18,199 nucleotides of DNA from Amoebophrya sp. AT5.2. Taxonomy: Eukaryota > Sar > Dinophyceae > Syndiniales > Amoebophryaceae. Shown in pieces: positions 1-11,886 of this stretch. Every line of letters begins with the position of its first letter. The first letter of the stretch is position 1. Location: the NCBI GenBank assembly GCA_005223375.1, contig RXOD01004799.1, positions 1-18,199 of the forward strand, in the 5' to 3' direction. A model generated the notes under the pieces. It had not been told where the DNA came from. It was given only the letters and a program-made list of their open reading frames with translations, and did not search any database. The position numbers were made by a program, and so were the translations under genes.

Positions 1-147
1 GAAGGGGCTGGGAGCAGAAAAGCGGCTATTCGCGGTTGGCAGGACTGCCGCCTTGACGCACTCGCCACCTAGGGCAATCCGCCACCCAAGTGGGGACCCA
101 TCACGAAGTACTTACCAGTTGGCCACTTACCAGCTGGTCCCTCCATA
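1..147 (-). mobile_element. Introner copy A, in the domain III pore region (truncated by window edge)
   Basis: Read on the minus strand from 147, this starts TATGGAGGGACCAGC and matches copy B (from 3690) over about 100 bp, down to GCGTCAAGGC near 51. A further patch near 15-35 (CCGCGAATAGCCGC) matches copy B near 3375-3395. Flanking coding sequence ends at AACTTCTACGA (NFYD), which lines up with the start of a domain III pore helix. The 3' end lies outside the window, so the flanking repeat and second inverted arm cannot be tested. A canonical GTAAGT...CCCAG exit (AG at 8-9) is also possible for this copy. Confidence 0.7.
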
Positions 148-3100
148 TCGTAGAAGTTCAGCCACTTGCCCCCCTGCTCCACGCAGGAGGCCGCGTCGTC
201 CACCAAGGGCTCGCAGGCTTCGGGGCAGAGACACTGCGAGATGCACTGGGAGAGGCAGTGGAAGCTGCTGCGGCTGTCGCGACAAAAATACAGGTCGGAC
301 TGGCACGCGTCGTAGCAGGTTTCGAAATCCGCGTCCTTCCCGTCCTGGTAGTAGCGCTGGAGAGAAGCGTAGTCCGCGATCCCGGGCCCGGTCGTGGACG
401 AGGCAGGCAGTACTTGCGCGGAAGTTAAAGATGCTGCTGCAGCGACACCAGCGTCAAAGCCGTCGTGCGCGAAGTACGCTTTTCGCCAGGGGCAGTGCTG
501 TCTTGCGCAGTGCGAGCACTGCAGCACTTGGTAGCCCCACACCGCGTTCTGTTGGCAGAATGCGGAGTCCTTACTGTTCTCGCAGTGCAACACACAAATC
601 GGCGTGTCCGCGGATTCCCGTCGGTACGGAACGAGCGTCGTGCCCGCGGCAACAGCTGCTGCCCCGATCATGCTGCTTGGCGCGTAGTCGTTCCTGTGGA
701 AGTAGTTTCCCGCGTCCAGGTACAGCAGCTCCACGCTTTTCGCTGGGTCCACTACCGTGTAGGGGAAGGGCAGGAACTCGCTCGTCTGGCAGGAGTAGAA
801 GGCGCCCTTGAAGGAAGAGATTCCGACCAGGCCGAACACCATGAAGACGACGGCGGCGACCAACGCGATGTTGCCCAGCTGCGGCAGCACGCGGAAGATT
901 GTGTCCACCACCAGCCGCAGCGACTCGTTCCGCTGGACCAGGCGAAGCGGGCGCAGCGCGCGGAACACCCGCAAACCCCGCAGCCCCGACAACCCCCCGT
1001 CCTGGACGTCCATCATTCGGGTCAGAATCTCGTCCGTCCAGCTGACGATGACCACGATGAGGTCGAGATAGTTCCACGCGTTCCGGAAAAACGGAACGCG
1101 CTGGTCGGCCTTGCTGCGCTGCCCCGGCTTCAACTTTTTTGCTTCCTGCCGCGTGGCGCGCTCCATGTGCCGGACTAAGTTCGCGAAGCAGGAAAGCTCT
1201 GGCTTATTGATTATTTGCTGCTGATTTTTTACTTGATTTCCACCGCCGTTGAAAGTAATGGAGCTGCCAGAGGACCTCTGGTTTTCTGCTGGAAGGATGC
1301 TCCTCGCGTTGGTTTGGTGAATCACAACGTCGGTTGTGGGCATGGTCGGCGAGCTGGGTGGAGAAGTCAGAATGGGATCGCTCATCATCGCGCCCAGGGG
1401 TTCGCGCTCCACCGGGCGCGCGGATCCGCTAGAACCGCGTGGCGTTTCGGGAGCTGCTGCAGGAGGGACTCCTGCGGGGCCGGTTGCTGGTGCGGCCTGG
1501 TCCACGTGGTTGGCGTTGTTTTTCGCAGACGTGTTTGCTCCCGCGCCAGCTGCCATGACGAGGCCCGACGACGACGACGCCTTGCTGCTTTTTCGGCTGA
1601 GCGCGCTCCGCGTAGTAGAGCTCTGCTTCGGCAAGTAACGGTTGGGTTCCCGGGGGAACCTACAGAAGCCAAGACAAAAGATGCGCAGCGCAATCTCGAT
1701 CGTGAAGATGATCGTGAAGACGAAGTTGCAGAAGTCCATCGCCTGGTACCAGTCGGCGGTGGGGTCCTCCAGGGGGTTTTGTGCGGCGATGAAGAGCGCG
1801 GACAGCACGATGCACACCAGAATGACGCGATCAAAAAACGGATGCAGAAGAACCAAGGTCAAAAACTCCCGGAGCGATACGCTGTCCGGCGAGAGCAGCT
1901 GCTGCGTCTGCGATCTGGACGGTGACACGCCGATCGTGGAGTTGCGCGGCGTGAGGCCCTCGGGACTGCTGCTGCCATGCGCGGTTTGCCCGGTGGGCTT
2001 CTTCAGCCAAGAATGCAAATCTGTTGTCGTCCTTGGGGACTTCGGCGCGGGGGCGGCGGGCGGGTCTTTGATGTAGAAACTGAAAGGCGCAGCTCCTCCG
2101 ACACCGACGCTGTTTCCGTTTAAAGACGGCGCCAGCGACGGCAACATGGGCGTTGCACTAGCGGTCGTGGGCTGCCCCGCGGTGGATATTCGTTCTTTCC
2201 CGTCCAGGAACGAGCTGGTGTCGTTGGAAACCCGCTCAGTGGTGTCGATCTGCTGCTGTGGTCCTGTAGCTGTTTCTAAGCTTGGATTTCCACTCCTGAC
2301 TTGCTCTTGGAGTTGTCTGCCACCGCCCGCACCACCGGAGCTGGTTTCAGAGAGCCGCTTGAAGACGAGCGGCTCTGTATCGTGCTCGCCGGAAATGTAA
2401 ATGTTGCTTGCGTTCAACGAGCTGCCGGGTGGTGCGCGATGCCTCGAGTCCGCTGCGTTACCATCTTTTGTGAACGCTGTAAAAGTCGCGCGTGGAGGCG
2501 CTGTTTCGGGTAGTGCCGGCGAATGACGCGCGGAAGGGCCGCCTCCGGGGGCTTTATCTGCACCGCCCCCGCTGTCTGAGCCCGACCCGGAATCGTAAAA
2601 ATCACTGTCGCTCTCGTCATCGTCTCCCCTGCGGCACAGGCACCGTCGCCGGGAGCGGCGCAGACAGCGGTCCATCGTGGTCTCAGCCTCGCGGTCCTCG
2701 AAGCGCCTCTCAAACGCGTCCAGGTTGCGCACGGCCTTACTTCGTCGCTGAATGAACAGCTTGCGTTCCCGCTTCTCCTGCTCGCGTTCCTGCTGCTGGC
2801 CGAAGTTGCCAATCAAGATGGCGAGGAAGACGTTCAGCACCACGAAAACACCAATGGTCAACACCCCCATAAAGTAGAGCGCGTATCCCTGTCTTACAGC
2901 ACGGACCGAGGCCAACCGCTGTATATCACGCAGCTTGAGCTGCTGCTGCTCTGCTACGCGTCTGCGTCGCTAGGCGTGCTCGTGCCTCCTCCCGTGCGCC
3001 GAAGAAGAACAAGTAGATGCTATGTATTCATTGCTACGCGGTCGCTTCTTTGTTTCTACTAAGACTAACCCTAACGCAAACGCTGCTCGATAAAAACTTC

Positions 3101-6100
3101 TTTTAAAAACTTCTCCTAGCAACTACATATAGAGCGACACAAGGGAGCACGCAGCCCCCCGACCTCAGGCCCACGCAGAAGTGGGCAGTGAGTTGGCCTC
3201 GATTGACCGTGCGTACGTAGCCTCTTGCTTTCATTCCGTCGTACATAACGAGGTGCCAGGCGTCCCCCGAGAATGTGGCGGGGCCAGATTGTAAGTGGTA
3301 AAGCAAGATTTAGGGGGGGCTCTCCGGGGTGCCCTTTCTGGGTGGTCCTAAAAAGAGATCTGCAGTAAAAGAAAGGCGGCTTTTCGCGGAGGTCTCTTGC
3401 AGCCTCTAGCCGACAATAAATATTGCGACCCTACGCGGCCTCTTTTGCCTTGTTTTCAGGCCTAATAACCATTGTAGTCAGTGGCTTTCCGCGACCGCTT
3501 CCCCCTACCTCTCGGGGTCTAACTTCCCGTCGGCCACACCCTACGCCCCCCCCGCATGGGGCATCTCGGAGACCGTCCCGAGCGCCTTGACGCGCTCGCG
3601 CTCGCCACGACCTCGGGAAATCGGCCACCCAAGTGGGGACCCATCGCCTAGCACTTACCAGGTACCCACTTACCACCTGGCTCCTTCATAGAGATGAGCT
3701 GGAACACAGTGAGACAGCTCCACAGGAAGTCGTCGAAGTGCCATCGCGGCAGGCACTTGTTCAGGTTCCTTTTGATCGTTCCCGAGCTGTCCCCCGCCTG
3801 GTATTGCGCCGAGACCTGCACCTCGTAGGTGGACAACAAGCTACCAGCACCACCTCCGGCCGGCACTGGCAATGGCAGCCACTGCAGCGGGTCGTGCATG
3901 TGGCAGTTCTGGTAGCACCACTGCTCGTTTTGGAGGAGCTGCGTGACCGGGGCGCACTTGGACAGGAAGGTGCCGTACATCGGCTCAAACATGAGGTAGG
4001 TCGCGAAGAACGCCTGCCCCAGTAGGGAGAAGATGTAGATCATCACAACCAGCAGCAGCACGAAGTTCCCAATCTGCGTCATGGTTCCGAGGATGGATTT
4101 TAGGAGTAGCCGGAAGGAGCGCCAGCTGCGCGCCAGTTTCAGGACCCGCAGCGCCCGGAACGCCGTGAACGAGCTGCCGGTGCTCCCGTCCTCCCGGAAG
4201 AAGAGCTCCAGCGTGGACAGGACCACGATGCTCCCGTCGAAGCAGGTTCCCAGCTTGAGCCAGTACATCTGGAAGCCGTGCGCGATGTGCAGCGTGACCA
4301 GCTCCAGCACAAACACCGCGTAGCAGACCAGGTTCAGCACAAACACCGCGTCGCGAACCGGCTTGGGGTGCGGCGGAAACTTGTCGAGGGAGAGAATAAA
4401 TGCGTTCACCGCGATCACCAGCATCACCGTCAGCTGAAACGTCTCGCCCTCCACGAGCGTGAAGGTACGCGCGCGAAAGCGTCGCCACTTCATCAGCCGC
4501 TCCTGCGGCGTCTCGCCGACAACCGCCGCTAAAGACCCCGTGCGCCTCAGTTGGTGCAGGGTCCCGCTTTTCTTGAGCAGCATTTTTCCGGCGGCCGCGG
4601 TCGTGGTCGCCCCCAAATCGGCGGAGGATTTGAATTCCGCCGTCGCGTGGTGCTGGGTCAGCAGCAGGCGGACCCTCGCTTGCTGCGACGCCTTCGTGGT
4701 CTTCATCTTCTTGCTCACGTGCTTATGGGCCTCCACGGACCGGTTCTTCAGCAGGTCCACTGCGGACTTGCTGCTCATCGCAACGTCCGCCGACTTGCTT
4801 CGGAAGTGGCGCGACCCCGGCATGCCAGAAGAAGACACCAGCATGGTGCCAGAACGTTTTCGTAGCCCAAAGCCAGAGAACTTGCGCTGCCGATGCTGGC
4901 GCTGCAAGTCGTCGGACTGAACCTTCAAAGGCTTGCCGAACGCGTTGTACTGAATCTGGCGAAGGTCCATCCCGAAAAAAATGCTCGTAGGGTCCCGCAC
5001 GTGCGGGTCGTCGACGACGCGCCCGTGAAAGTTGATGTCGCCCGGCAGCAGGTACCCACGCTCGCGGGCGGCCCTTCTCCGACCCTCGGTGTCGGAGGTA
5101 GAGGCGTCGGACAACAGGGGTGCAGGTGGGACAGCTGCACCGTCGCCGATTGCGGGCACCACAGGGTGGTCTTCCACAGCTTTCTTCTTCTCGCTTTGGT
5201 CTCGTCCCTGCTCAGCCTCTTCCGCACTGGAGGACGAGGACGCAAGCTCCTCTCCACAGGAAATCACCTCTTCCACGCCCTCGCCCTCTTCTCGCATCAA
5301 CGCCGTACTCGTACTTCTGCTTCGCCGGCTCTTCCGGGTGCTGCGGCGCACCTCAATTTTCGCGCCCGGTGTGGAATCACCCACCTGACGCATCAGTGCA
5401 TCGAGGTCGTCGTCAACGAAGGGGCTCCGAGGTGACGACGCGGATCTTCCCCGTGCCGCGCGCAGCAGCTTCCCCGGCGAAGCAATGGTCAGCTCGTCAC
5501 CATTCTCGGTGATAGCGCTGAGCGGAGTGCTCGCGGGCCGTCTGCACATATTTGCCCGCGACGCAAACCCTGATCCGAGGCCGAATAATCCACCGCTGCC
5601 GCACCCATATGCACCTCCTCCTCGCGACGAAGTAGAGCTGCCTTCACCATTCGGAGGGGAGCGGTAGGAGGCGCCCCCGCCTCCGCATCGGCTCAAGACG
5701 CCAAAGAACGAAGCGGCCCCTTGTGCTGGTGAAGAAAGAGACCTTCTCCGCCCGGCACTCCGGCTGCTCCACTCCCGCTGCAACATCGGCATGATTGGAC
5801 TCCCACTCCCGCGTCCACCGCGGTCCAGAAATACGTCGATATCATCCTCGTTCGATGTTCTCGCTGTTGGCGGCGGCGTGCCTAAGCATCCTCCACCTGC
5901 GGCCCCATGAGATTGAGAAGATGGCACTGGTGGTACTGCCGACGTACCTCCCCCCGCGTCTCTTCGCTTCGAGAAGCGACGGAACTCGGTGTGCGCCGAC
6001 ACGCGTCGGTGGTGTATCTCAGAATCGGAGATCCCCAGAAACTCCGCCTGCTGAAGCGTCGAAGCCGGTATTTCCGTACTGAACAGCAGCGTCGAAAACG

Positions 6101-8922
6101 GGCCGTCGCCGTCCGCTCCCTGTTCCAGCGTCGGTTCGTTGTCCAACCGCCGCCGCATAGTAGACGAAGCTCGCGACCCCGACGACCTCCAGGACCGCGC
6201 GCTACCCTCGCGCTCTAAGTAGGGTCTACTGCCTCTGCCTCTGTTTCTGCTCATCGCCCCCTCCGGTCCAGCTCCACGGCCCCCCTCTTGGCCAACGTCG
6301 TCTCCTGCCTTTCCCTCTCCGCCTACAACTTCCCCCGTCACCTCTGGGTTTGCGCGCAGTCCCGCCAGTAGGTTTGACGAAGAGAAGGAGGAGGCGGCTT
6401 TCGAGAAGGCGGACAAAACAAAGGTGCGCCGTCGCATGTCCACCTCTGTTTGGTCATGGTGGTCCTGCTGGTGTCCCGATTGGTCAATCACGATGTCCTT
6501 CGTGTGCGTGTCGATTTGCAGCACGTCCGAGTTGTCGGAGGACGCCTTGGAGGAAGAGGAGCTGCTGCTGGAGCTGGAAGACTCCTTGGAACGCGACCGG
6601 GCCCCCGCCTTCGATGTTGGTGCCTCCGCAGCTGTCGATGTAGTTTCTCCAGCACCGGCAGCTGCACCGCCTGGCTCATCTTGCGCGGCAGGGCCGAGGC
6701 CGTCCTGGTGGTTTTCCTTGCTGTGTTGTCTCTTTAGGATTTTCGCGGCCTTCTTCTTCGCGGTGGTGGTTTGTGTGGGGTCGTTGAACGCGTCGCACAC
6801 GACGGCGAGGGTGACGTTCAGCACGAAGAAGGTGCCCAGCATGATCACCACGGTGAAGAAGAAGCGGGCGAACGTGACGTCGAAGCTGTCCTCGTAGAGG
6901 TACATGAGGTCCACCCAGCCGGACAAAGTCACGGTCTGGAATAGCGTGAGTGCCGCCACGGGGAAGTTGTCGAACCCCGTCAGCGCCCAGTTGAAGTCCT
7001 CCACTTTGTCCAGCGCGATCATTTCGTGCCGCACCACCGCCGCCGTCGGAAACTTCGCGCCCAGATTTCCGCTGCTCCCGCTCCCGAAGAACGAGGACCC
7101 GTCTTCCTCGGCCGCAACCTCGGACGGGATGGACTTCTCGAAAATTGCGTCCTTCGCCAGCAGGTCCCGAAACTGCCGCATCCGCGGCCCGGTCAGAAAG
7201 CCGGAGGCCGCGTCTTCGTACAGCATGCTGCCGCAGTAGGTGCCGCCAGACGGGTTCTGTAGGCTGTAGAGGTCTTGGAGAATCTCCGCAATCCGGGTGG
7301 CGTCGGGCGCGATCTCGGGCAGGGTGGACACAACTACCGCCCCTGCAGAGGACCCCGAAGATCCGCCCGACGCCGTGGTGGTGTCGCCGGAGGAAACCCG
7401 TGGCCGGCGCTTGGGGACGCCGAACGCGGCCTGCTTCTCGCTAATCAGGGGGCAACTCCGGCCGCCGCAGCCGCGCGCAGTCTCCAGCAGAAGGGCGGCG
7501 TCGTAGGGCGGGGGCTCGGACTGGTAACCGAAATCCTGCAGCCCGTTCAGCACGGACTCGGACCGCGAGCTGTCGTCGATCGGCCACACGAGGAAAAAAC
7601 GGGGGACCTCCACCGGCAGGTCATTATCCCCCGCGGCGACTCCTTCCGCCACTTTTGCCGTCTCTGCCAGCCTGGTCCTGCACACCGTGCCCACGCCGCA
7701 GAGCCGCGCGATCAAGTTCAGGTTCTTTCCCTCCGTCGTGAGCGCGGTCTGGTTTGCGTTCATGAGCTCCACCGCAGACGCGTTGCCCTGGGTCGCAATG
7801 TCTAGCGCGTGCGGCTCGTTCACGAGGAACGCGAGCACGCTCGCCATGGTCGCGGAAGTGGCCGCGCCACCACCAGCTGCAGAAGTTGTACCTCGACCAC
7901 CTCCGAATGCGAATTGCGTCGAGTTGTAGAAGACGAGCGGCTCGGGCGTGAAGCGGCAGAAGCGGTGCAGCGTTCCGCCCATGAAGTTGATGCCGAGAAT
8001 ACCAAAAACCACGATCAGGAAAAGGAACATGGCCGCGACGTTCACCAGGCGCGAGACCGAGAGGAAAAAGGTACGGATGATCTTTCGCAGCCCGGGCAGG
8101 CGCGCCACGGACCGGAGCGGCCGGAGCACGCGCAGGACGCGGAGCACCGAGACGCCGCTGGACTCGCCGTCCTCGCCGTCCGAAGCGGAAACCGCACTCA
8201 CGAAGGAAATGAACCCGGACACCACCACCACGAAATCGAGAATGCACCAGGGGTCGCGCAAATACGCAGTGCGCCCGGTGATCAGCCCGAAAGCAATCAT
8301 CTTGATGAACATCTCGACCATGAACGCGAAGAGGAACACCTGGTGGGGAGTGCGGCCGCGATCCGATACGGATTTATTCGAGGATTTCGATCTATCGTCG
8401 TAAGTCCCGAATCCGTCTAGCTCGATGAGGACTGTGTCTACAAATTCAAAGAAATGGTGGAGGATCCCTCTCATCAGTAGACTACCGGCTCCAGGTTTTC
8501 GATGAAGACAGTGCGGTCTGACTTCGGGTTCCGGTAATCCAGTAGAGCCATGAACAAGGCGTTGAGAAAGATGAGTCCCAGCACAAGACGCTCGAAGTGC
8601 GGGTTGATGGAAATCCGCCAGCACCGGTAGCGCAGCGCCGTGTCGGGCGACAAGCAACCGACAGCACGCTCGCAGGTGGCCTCGCGCCACGCGGCCTCCT
8701 GCTTCTGCTGAGCCACTTGCATCTTCGTCTCCTGCTCCGATGTTGGCAGACGGACCACTCGTCCGAGGCCTAAAGTCTGGCAGCTCTGCCTCTGGGCCTG
8801 CTGTTGTGCTGGTTCTGCTTAGCACCCCTTGCAGTTGCACGACCGACTTGCCCCGGTCCTTGGTCCCCACGACCGTCGGCGCCGCTCGTCCCCGCTAGTG
8901 CCTGGTGCACGACAAGGTCCAT
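148..8922 (-). CDS. Four-domain voltage-gated cation channel (Cav/Nav-like) alpha subunit, 3' part missing
   Basis: Pore-forming subunit of a voltage-gated Ca2+/Na+ channel in a membrane. My model has exons 8922-8874 (tentative), 8769-8486, 8339-3691, 3268-3217 and 2888-148, all in phase, continuing past the left edge. Domain I: S1 about 8587-8534, S2 starting at 8339, arginine-rich S4 (VLRVLRVLRPLR), pore FDNF...TLSGW at 6915-6929, then S6. A roughly 780-residue low-complexity linker with a poly-Ser run follows. Domain II: S1 near 4440, FDGSIVVLS in S3, S4 ALRVLKLARSWR, pore TVFQLIS/GDAWHLVMYDGM, S6 about 2885-2814. Domain III: S1 to S5 (S4 GLRGLRVFRALRPLR), then a Cys-rich loop ending at NFYD. 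The domain III filter and all of domain IV lie outside. Channel identity is seen directly; ion selectivity is not predictable, because domain I has Ser where Cav channels have Glu. The first exon (ATG at 8922) rests only on phase agreement; ATG 8722 is the alternative start. Confidence 0.9.
2889..3216 (-). other. Channel intron with paired ends, between domain II filter and S6
   Basis: A GT-AG reading is TAC|GTACGC at 3217/3216 and GACAG|GGATAC at 2889/2888, phase 0, joining KARGY to GYALYF. The ends are complementary: GCACGGTCAATCGAGGCCAAC on the minus strand at 3212-3192 matches GCACGGACCGAGGCCAAC on the plus strand at 2899-2916. TACG also occurs at both edges (3219-3216 and 2885-2882); removal at those repeats would give KARGYALYF, also in frame. 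Which boundary is used cannot be told from sequence. Confidence 0.75.
3273..3298 (+). repeat. Terminal inverted repeat, 3' arm of copy B
   Basis: Partner of the arm at 3666-3690, starting directly next to the TCTC (plus strand GAGA) repeat at 3269-3272. The 5' arm starts one base (T) inside its repeat. This layout of direct repeat then inverted repeat is typical of DNA-transposon insertions. Confidence 0.8.
3666..3690 (-). repeat. Terminal inverted repeat, 5' arm of copy B
   Basis: The minus strand reads TATGAAGGAGCCAGG then TGGTAAGTGG. The plus strand at 3273-3298 reads ATGTGGCGGGGCCAGATTG then TAAGTGG. Shared blocks are ATG, GCCAG and GTAAGTGG, so the two intron ends could base-pair in the RNA. 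Confidence 0.8.
4296..4351. repeat. In-frame 30-bp tandem duplication in channel domain II S2
   Basis: GACCAGSTYCAGCACAAACA followed by CCGCGT occurs at 4296-4321 and 4326-4351. On the coding strand this gives the ten-residue periodic peptide DAVFVLNLVC / YAVFVLELVT across the start of S2. Confidence 0.6.
8340..8485 (-). other. Channel intron between domain I S1 and S2 (GT-AG)
   Basis: Donor CCG|GTAGTC and acceptor CACCAG|GTGTTC, 146 nt, phase 0. Splicing joins FIENLEP to VFLFAFMVEMFIKMIAFGL, giving an S1-S2 spacing normal for the family. Without it the S1 frame hits TGA soon after VVY. No inverted-repeat ends are visible. Confidence 0.85.
8770..8873 (-). other. Possible first intron of the channel gene
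   Basis: The S1 frame is closed by a TAA at about 8821. ATG at 8922 opens another frame (MDLVVHQALAG...). Donor GACG|GTCGTG (8874/8873) and acceptor TTTAG|GCCTC (8770/8769) would join the two in phase, and a branch-like TGCTAAG lies between. The donor is weak, so this is only a suggestion. Confidence 0.4.
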
Positions 8923-9821: not shown

Positions 9822-11783
9822 TCATACACTTCCGCCACACGACTCCAGCAGGAAGCTTTGGTAGCACCACAGGTGGTCGAAACACATGTCGTACCACGCG
9901 TTCAGGGCAATGGTTGGCCCCTTCTGCGTCGCGGCATGCATCCACAGGCGCGGCAGGTACAACATCTCCCCCGGCTTCAGGAGCACCTGCTTGCAGTTTG
10001 CCTGGGCAAACCTCGGGTGTGTCCGAAGGATTTCTTCGTACGGAAGCCGAATGTCGATCGGACTCCACGGCGTCGAAGAGGAAGAACTTTGGCGCTCGGC
10101 ATCGCGCCGTGTATCTTCCCGACCAACGTTCTCCCCCGCTTCGTCGTGTGCCCCCATCGTACTAGAACTTGTGGACGCGGACGATGTAGTTGCTGTTGCC
10201 CCTTCGAGATCGATGGACCATTTTCCACGGTTTTCGTTTTCTTCCTTGCCCTCTTCTTCCGGGGATCGAGACCACCTGTACCTCGCGGTCTGGTACGCTT
10301 CTTGGTAGAAGTAGGGCGCCGAACAGGGTGGCGCCAGCCAGAACACCTTGCCCGCCCCGGCGGTGACGAGGTACAAGTTCTCGTAGTTGTCCTTGTGGAA
10401 GCTGCTCAGACTCCGCTCGTCCCCGACCCACAGGTTCAACGCCTCCATCTGCTGGAAAACGGCGTCGAGGTCTGGGTCCGGGCCAAACGCGGTACGCTCT
10501 TGTCTTCTGTACCACGCAGGCACCAGGTCAGAATAGCTATATTCAGGATTACCACCAACTCCGAAGCTTTTGAAGAAGCTCTCCACCATTTTGCGGTCGG
10601 CTTCGCAGCCCCTAAAGGCGTCGTCCTGGCGGAGGCAGTCGTCCTGCATCGAGAGGTAGGGGACGAACCTCGTTTTCCCCACGTCTTCGGGCGCATTTTC
10701 GCGTGGCGAAAACAAGTCGTCGCAGAACGCCCCGAAACTCATATCGGTTTCGTGCGGCTTCACGAACAGCTGGATACGATCGCGGTCGCTCGAGGACGAT
10801 GCGCTGTTGTTTCCGCCCTGGTGCCCACCTCCGTCGAAGACCGGGACGGTGACCACCGCGTCGCCATACCCGTCCGGCGTCGCGTTCACCCGCACTTTCG
10901 TGTTCTCGCCAACTGCGGCGAGGGCCTGCGTGAAGGATGTGAAACAACCAAACTTGGGGCGCGGAGGCTTGCCGCCGCCTTCTCCGTCCAGGTCCACGTG
11001 CGTGAAGATGCAGGGGCGGTTGCGGGCGACGAAGTCGCGCAAAAAGTCGGCCCGCCGGATAGAGCGGATATCCACACGAGGCACGGCGAACCCCGAGTGG
11101 TCCTGCAGCTCCGGATGATACGGAAACGAACAGCCGCGTCGAGAAGTACCCGCTGCCCGCTCTTGGTTTTTCCGTATCTCTTTGTGGTCCAAGTACTTTT
11201 CGGCGTTGCTGTTGTGGTAGCAAAACGAGGCGGCGTTCTCTGCGAGGTTCCGGCGAGCAGTATCCGCAACCCGCAGCACGTTGTCCTTCGTGGTTTTCAT
11301 CGCCTGCAAAGTCTGCAGAGCTCGGTCCAGCCCCTGCTCCGCTAACCTGTTCTCCCCCTCTAGCTGGGCGCATTTCTGCCGCAGCTGCGCCAGTTCTTCC
11401 GCAGCCTCGTCCTTCGACGACCCGTCGTCCACCGCACCTGCTCCCGCAGTGTCGCTTGCAATCGCTCCGCCGGCTTGTCCGGCCGCACCACCTGCATCTT
11501 CCTTTGTGATTTTTACTTCCGCGGCGGATAGCAGTGCGAGATCTTTCTTCACTGATTGCAATTGCTGCTTCAGCTTGCGATCCTTGCGGGAGGTCTCCAA
11601 AAACGATTTCCAGGCGGAAAAGCTCCAAAACTGCGCAGCACTGCGGTGCGCGATGGGCCCGGAACAAGCACGCTCTTCGGGTTCGGCGCAGGGCGGCATG
11701 CTGTTCGTGCTCGTCCTGCTGCTGCTGCTAGTAGCAGCTTCGATCGTCTGTACGTCGCCCTCACGACAGGTCGAGGTGTCCAT
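9822..11783 (-). CDS. JMJD7: JMJD7-like JmjC-domain 2-oxoglutarate oxygenase
   Basis: A single-exon gene of 653 residues from ATG 11783 to TGA. JMJD7 proteins are Fe(II)/2-oxoglutarate (3S)-lysyl hydroxylases. The C-terminal half fits closely: ALNLWVGD...SFHKDNYENLYLV gives the metal-binding HxD (H463, D465), and GEMLYLPRLWMHA gives the distal His (H616), followed by the JMJD7-type ending ALNAWYDM. About 240 residues precede the catalytic part, with charged probable coiled coils near 60-90 and 125-180. An acidic, Ser/Thr-rich stretch of roughly 80 residues (about 505-580) splits the catalytic fold. Known animal JMJD7 is about 316 residues, so this protein is twice that size. The start is chosen as the first in-frame ATG, 6 bases after a good 3' splice-site motif. 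Lysyl hydroxylation of particular substrates is not shown here. Confidence 0.88.
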   Translation of the reverse strand: MDTSTCREGDVQTIEAATSSSSRTSTNSMPPCAEPEERACSGPIAHRSAAQFWSFSAWKSFLETSRKDRKLKQQLQSVKKDLALLSAAEVKITKEDAGGAAGQAGGAIASDTAGAGAVDDGSSKDEAAEELAQLRQKCAQLEGENRLAEQGLDRALQTLQAMKTTKDNVLRVADTARRNLAENAASFCYHNSNAEKYLDHKEIRKNQERAAGTSRRGCSFPYHPELQDHSGFAVPRVDIRSIRRADFLRDFVARNRPCIFTHVDLDGEGGGKPPRPKFGCFTSFTQALAAVGENTKVRVNATPDGYGDAVVTVPVFDGGGHQGGNNSASSSSDRDRIQLFVKPHETDMSFGAFCDDLFSPRENAPEDVGKTRFVPYLSMQDDCLRQDDAFRGCEADRKMVESFFKSFGVGGNPEYSYSDLVPAWYRRQERTAFGPDPDLDAVFQQMEALNLWVGDERSLSSFHKDNYENLYLVTAGAGKVFWLAPPCSAPYFYQEAYQTARYRWSRSPEEEGKEENENRGKWSIDLEGATATTSSASTSSSTMGAHDEAGENVGREDTRRDAERQSSSSSTPWSPIDIRLPYEEILRTHPRFAQANCKQVLLKPGEMLYLPRLWMHAATQKGPTIALNAWYDMCFDHLWCYQSFLLESCGGSV

Positions 11784-11789
11784 TTTGAA

Positions 11790-11810
11790 CTTGAAGAATA
11801 AGTTTAGTAC
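11790..11810 (-). promoter_or_regulatory. Branch point plus 3' splice site just upstream of JMJD7-like start
   Basis: The minus strand reads GTACTAAACTTATTCTTCAAG, followed by TTCAAA and the ATG. It has a near-perfect branch motif (TACTAAA), a short pyrimidine stretch and an AG. It could accept a spliced leader in trans or end an intron in the 5' UTR; no donor or leader is seen. Confidence 0.5.
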
Positions 11811-11886
11811 GCAGTACAATGCCGCGCAGTCGTTGATGTAATCGTACTACTTGTTGTTCTTTTTCAGAAATGTATCAGATGTCATT

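Follow-up and report, generated by a model that had tools for sequence, protein, structure and literature searches.

We found that a 417-nt insert in the pore of a predicted voltage-gated channel gene is one copy of a repeat family with inverted-repeat ends and a flanking 5-bp target duplication. Removal of family members at the duplication restores reading frames, and the copy in the window offers no AG usable as a splice acceptor. The insert is probably an introner of the Amoebophrya type, removed from RNA at the duplication under the guidance of its pairing ends, a reading to which we give a probability of roughly 80%. That removal acts on RNA, and that the paired ends guide it, is what we infer from sequence. 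It thus appears to be an intron-forming element of a known kind, well delimited, whose removal several genes seem to need.

The window, that is, the whole stretch of DNA analysed, is one complete contig of 18,199 bases from a 50.7-Mb genome in 2,759 contigs. Its minus strand carries a multi-domain voltage-gated channel gene, two long open frames of which match Pfam Ion_trans; the best solved-structure matches of the product are T-type calcium channels (Table 1). The insert separates FQLIS from the pore motif GDAWHLVMYDGM. An earlier note on this DNA had reported the motif, an in-frame TAA ahead of it and the lack of an AG between the two, all of which we found again. It had also described direct repeats at both edges with terminal inverted repeats adjoining them; these are present, but their sizes had to be corrected. 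The duplication is 5 bp long (ATCTC/TTCTC), the TCTC given earlier being its four identical bases, and the arms are 25 bp, matching at 19/25, around an element of 417 nt (3690-3274). Downstream, the 21 residues between GDAW and YFMGV used to place the second intron correspond to what we take to be the pore-to-S6 spacing of T-type channels.

Table 1. Features in the 18,199-base window and what each assignment is based on.
Feature	Position	Strand	Details and basis
Introner-like element in channel pore	3274..3690	-	417 nt; repeat bounded by terminal inverted repeats; ends set from 33 two-ended copies
5' terminal arm, TATGAAGGAGCCAGGTGGTAAGTGG	3666..3690	-	End pattern match
3' terminal arm, CCACTTACAATCTGGCCCCGCCACA	3274..3298	-	Complementary to 5' arm at 19/25; paired in minimum-energy fold
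Target duplication, upstream copy ATCTC	3691..3695	-	5 bp, read from sequence
Target duplication, downstream copy TTCTC	3269..3273	-	One mismatch to ATCTC
TAA stopping the GDAW frame before the motif	3310..3312	-	AG absent from TAA to exon
Upstream open frame, predicted voltage-gated cation channel	3691..8894	-	1,734 codons up to insert; Ion_trans in three stretches; T-type calcium channel matches
Short exon, remainder of pore, GDAWHLVMYDGMKARGY	3218..3268	-	Predicted 3' end; protein alignment and join test
Second intron, fitting GT-AG, gives GMKARGYGYALYF	2890..3217	-	328 nt; predicted from GDAW-to-YFMGV spacing, 21 residues
Downstream exon, S6 of same domain and further Ion_trans stretches	148..2889	-	Open frame, join test, Pfam
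Second element copy in channel gene, 5' part only	1..147	-	Arm at 123-147, 1 mismatch; copy cut by contig end
Cupin_8/JmjC-like gene	9825-11846	-	Single open frame, 674 codons; Pfam

Within its own genome the insert had 47 BLAST matches, distributed over 40 contigs. Regions were fetched from all 39 other contigs, of which 8 lacked a two-ended copy and were left out. This yielded 33 two-ended copies including that of the window, 31 of them delimited by an end pattern (three starts being corrected from the BLAST alignment) and 2 by hand. With up to 3 mismatches, the end pattern matched the genome 759 times (387 + 372), against 0 + 0 when read backwards, and matched the window 3 times versus 0 expected. 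If two matches are assumed per copy, the family has about 380 members. The genome search for the arms that the earlier note had suggested thus establishes that the window insert is not a lone copy. Several of the genome-wide matches, like the copy at 1-147 of the window, are found near the ends of contigs, which suggests that the assembly breaks at the repeat.

Copies of the family are 229-601 nt long, mostly above 400, have arms of about 25 nt and ends that read TATG...CATA. Of the 33 copies, 23 have a 5-bp duplication without mismatch, 7 have one mismatch in it and the other 3 have three or four. With terminal inverted repeats, target duplications, short length and no long open frame of their own, the elements have the make-up of MITEs. 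The targets of 29 copies show no strong consensus. The first base after the duplication at these 29 empty sites is C or G in 27 and A in none, which may reflect a preference in targeting or be a mark left by removal.

When 167 kb was scanned blindly for inverted arms next to a perfect 5-bp direct repeat, 22 hits emerged, versus none in shuffles; the loci had mostly been fetched because they bear the family, and the control was one shuffled copy per locus. This family accounts for 19 of the 22 hits. A candidate second inverted-repeat family (L038:2244-2497) was rejected: it matched only itself among the fetched loci, and its interior continues the reading frame of the gene. The remaining two hits are in L022 and L027. 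At L027, the flanks of the element copy are inverted repeats of one another, forming a palindrome centred on the element, either an assembly artefact or a real inverted duplication.

The effect of removal on coding was assessed in 30 copies, three with poor duplications having been dropped, by codon scoring with other loci as the training set. When the element and 5 bp were taken out, the two sides shared their best-scoring strand and frame in 21/30 copies; where both flanks were clearly coding, all 12 copies did so. Six out-of-frame offsets gave only 1 or 2 concordant copies of 30. Random removals of matched lengths were concordant in 419 of 1,800 cases (p 7.6e-8), or in 120 of 290 among those with coding flanks (p 2.5e-5). 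A second set of 20 regions, picked by the end pattern alone, contained 13 testable copies, 7 of which were concordant, including 7/7 with coding flanks, versus 2/13 for every join shifted by 1 or 2. The 15 pairs printed for this set include one element listed twice and one false pairing, and 12 ends were unpartnered; the duplication is exact in 9 pairs and off by one in 4. When the two sets are pooled, all 19 coding-flanked copies (12+7) are restored. The copies that were not concordant (9/30 and 6/13) may be in non-coding sequence or next to other introns. The window copy itself was not called concordant by this codon-only test, a likely reason being its short downstream exon, and the case for it is made by protein alignment. 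Insertions fall in all three codon phases (9/10/10 in 29 copies). A test of longest open frames, in which 12/30 precise joins left 100 open codons on each side versus 7 to 10/30 for out-of-frame shifts, was replaced by codon scoring because it is too blunt in a GC-rich genome.

Frame restoration would also be expected if these were ordinary transposon insertions that break host genes and are never removed, since any recent insertion gives the frame back when taken out, and the duplication is indeed still perfect in 23/33 copies. We consider this unlikely, although it fares best among the alternatives. The 33 copies are 11-28% diverged from their consensus and no two are near-identical, the highest pairwise likeness being 89%; part of this divergence may, however, be older than insertion. 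The elements do not avoid coding sequence: 21/30 are placed in concordant coding sequence versus 1,314/3,000 repeated random draws from the same loci (Fisher p 0.005). The channel gene and a glycoside hydrolase 2 (GH2) gene each carry two copies, as does a single coding strand of locus L067, and frames are open around the joins. Nor does concordance fall steadily with divergence, being 9/10, 4/10 and 8/10 from the least to the most diverged ten. The enrichment in coding sequence, together with the concordance of the most diverged copies, makes young gene-breaking insertions hard to uphold.

Protein alignments across the joins agree with removal. No gap appears at the join when the restored channel pore is aligned with pores of T-type channels of solved structure, and the joins in topoisomerase III-beta and in glycoside hydrolase 2 are likewise ungapped against solved structures. 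Among topoisomerase relatives, 115/120 are ungapped within 3 residues of the join and 108/120 within 8. The nearest of these (P0007; 59% identical over half the query) has nearly identical residues to the predicted topoisomerase on either side of the join and lacks the insert. Leucine aminopeptidase is a weaker case: most of its relatives, largely bacterial, have a 3-residue gap slightly upstream of the join, leaving 40/120 ungapped within 3 residues and 1/120 within 8. Its top match, P0121, which carries the source tag merc (presumably a marine eukaryote transcript catalogue), is ungapped at the join. No same-species transcripts were among the relatives of the channel (0 hits), the topoisomerase (best 59%, over half the query) or the aminopeptidase (best 59%). 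The claim that excision is needed for function apparently stands; removal itself we infer from reading frames and protein conservation.

Exact removal that needs no splice sites and is indifferent to orientation could also be a DNA-level event of the life cycle, like that of the IESs of ciliates. This is very improbable, since the duplications are variable 5-bp sequences outside TA ends rather than the TA of ciliate-type IESs, the assembled DNA carries the elements, and we know of no somatic nucleus in dinoflagellates.

We then considered the joins that could splice the window copy, taking donors between a point 26 nt ahead of the insert and one 400 nt into it, and acceptors as far as GDAW. 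None of 1,005 frame-keeping, stop-free joins ended in AG; the last AG inside the element is at 3320-3319. Exact LIS-GDAW came from 6 of the 1,005 joins, each of them placed at the duplication or no more than one base from it, as expected from the earlier proposal that excision at the repeats restores this sequence with no residue changed. None of the six is GT-AG, their boundaries being TC-AT, CT-TT, TC-TC, CT-CT, TA-TC and AT-CG. On sequence grounds, canonical splicing is thus excluded for the window copy, and the joins, the arms and the duplication bear out the earlier description of a target-duplicated inverted-repeat intron beyond the reach of GT-AG splicing. In the family, a canonical dinucleotide pair is possible at the equivalent junction in 2/29 copies. 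An AG usable in frame is present in 23/29 and absent from 6/29, the window copy among them. GT-AG boundaries supplied by the element or its target duplication, as in a GT-AG introner, were not found.

Splicing at hidden canonical sites by the spliceosome, with GTAAGT within the 5' arm as donor, is if anything a shade less credible than removal from DNA. The GGTAAGT of the arm resembles, and we take it to match, the U1-binding donor consensus; genes for U1-70K and U1-C and introns fitting GT-AG are present, and an in-frame AG lies upstream of the exon in those 23 copies. However, the remaining six have no usable AG, no window join uses one, and the arm donor would insert residues that are absent from the protein alignments. 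A self-splicing ribozyme (group I/II or other catalogued) was rejected, as an Rfam search of window positions 3200-3760 gave no match up to E 1. Ribosome hopping, known from the byp elements of mitochondria, deserves almost no credence: a perfect 5-bp duplication always offers the same in-frame codon at both ends of the hop, but here a structured RNA of >400 nt, for which distance we know of no precedent, would have to be crossed in nuclear genes and in all three phases.

GT-AG-fitting introns occur in the same genes as the elements, namely the channel gene (3217-2890) and the GH2 gene. In the latter (L036:1446-2088), such an intron lies between two AGGTACTC copies, in addition to the two elements with inverted-repeat ends, and looks as if a duplicated AG|GT target had given rise to it. 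As for the splicing machinery, U6 was found at 2 loci and a match to U1-70K was obtained; U1-C was matched by a finger search that also matched its Escherichia coli control. A genome search of the type that found U6 detected neither U1 nor U2 RNA, and the negative result for U1 says little because U2 was missed too. A search for Prp8 domains gave no match, nor did its controls.

The host has the marks of a dinoflagellate. The query sequence, which we take to be the dinoflagellate spliced leader, has 18 exact matches in the genome and 33 with up to one mismatch, versus 0 reversed. Of four leader loci inspected, three (L048, L050 and L051) have no GT donor after the leader, like recycled cDNAs or retroposed mRNAs, and in L049 the leader is followed by GTACC, making it a possible leader-RNA gene. 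In a topoisomerase tree the host stands beside Prorocentrum and unnamed rows (95/85), with Symbiodinium and Amphidinium placed elsewhere; one row of the set is labelled copepod.

With respect to the strand of the gene, 11 elements are sense and 11 antisense (21 copies by codon score and the window copy by protein alignment). Fixed interior splice signals are therefore unlikely to be required, since only the ends and the duplication are identical both ways round. The occurrence of both orientations, together with the absence of fixed splice dinucleotides, makes the ends the likely removal signal. Folding of the intron RNA, which the earlier note had proposed as a check of end pairing, supports it in part: the arms are paired in the minimum-energy fold, but the fold of the whole insert is unexceptional (z -1.49; 8/100 shuffles as good). 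Between the two arms of one copy, the match is no closer than between arms taken from different copies (p 0.17), so covariation gives the pairing no support.

We propose that the channel gene was entered by a MITE-like, non-autonomous DNA element, whose insertion made a 5-bp duplication. The transcript would be cut at equivalent positions of the two copies of the duplication, giving back the pre-insertion sequence, with the inverted-repeat ends, paired as a hairpin, as the recognition signal. The candidate catalyst to which we give about even odds is a route that cuts and ligates independently of splice sites; ranked below it, with a somewhat smaller chance, would be a spliceosome that accepts relaxed sites once the hairpin has brought them together. 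The family 3' arm has ACUUACC, which we take to be the U1 donor-pairing sequence, opposite GGUAAGU of the 5' arm, and the element might by this means supply its own stand-in for U1; ACUUACC is degenerate in the window copy. More tentatively, the symmetric ends that move the element as DNA may double as an orientation-free signal for RNA excision, with machinery blind to dinucleotides joining the duplicates alongside GT-AG splicing in the same transcript.

Such intron-spreading elements, present here in hundreds of copies, are known from one genus of parasitic dinoflagellates. Introns without splice sites pose the question of their removal in Amoebophrya, euglenids and diplonemids alike, and the equal use of sense and antisense copies points to symmetric ends as the signal. 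cDNA synthesis can jump between direct repeats that flank hairpins, and the evidence in Amoebophrya is RNA-seq. The case for removal made here is built on DNA, from reading frames and protein conservation, free of cDNA.

The closest described kind is the introners of Amoebophrya, as the earlier note had suggested. According to the available text of Farhat et al. 2021 (PMC7789003), more than 60% of introns in strains A25 and A120 are non-canonical, and a share of these non-canonical introns (11% in A25, 30% in A120) carries 8-20-nt inverted and 3-5-nt direct repeats, in many families. The words "template switch", "artefact" and "artifact" are absent from the main text of that paper, and in the portions of the literature searched, that paper's wording included, we found no statement on orientation independence for non-canonical introns. 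As far as they are described there, these introners are resembled by the present family in its terminal inverted repeats, short direct repeats at the boundaries, absence of fixed splice dinucleotides (non-GT-AG boundaries being indicated here by reading frame), repeated copies and dinoflagellate host. In contrast, its duplication is 5 bp (theirs 3-5 nt), its arms are about 25 nt (theirs 8-20) and its ends are TATG..CATA. Set side by side by description, the present ends start with TAT and have no run of A, whereas the A120 motif has a TAT start and terminal As and that of A25 a TTA start. The A25 and A120 introners rest on RNA-seq, the present element on DNA and proteins. Amoebophrya ex Karlodinium, by the excerpt available, has mainly GT-AG introns (PMC12005148).

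GT-AG introners share with the present family MITE-like intron gain and, in many families, target duplications and terminal inverted repeats, as excerpted from Gozashti et al. 2022 (PMC9860276), and both insertion orientations were reported for introners by Huff et al. 2016, as cited in PMC10228655. Unlike the window copy, into which none fits, these introners carry or co-opt splice sites (PMC9860276). The nonconventional introns of euglenids and diplonemids also combine the lack of GT-AG with pairing ends and short direct repeats (PMC12621601, PMC4770533), but belong to another lineage, for which the available text of PMC12621601 describes no single large family with terminal inverted repeats and target duplications. 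The routes proposed there for diplonemid intron removal are RNase III with a ligase, a tRNA-splicing-like reaction or the spliceosome (PMC12621601).
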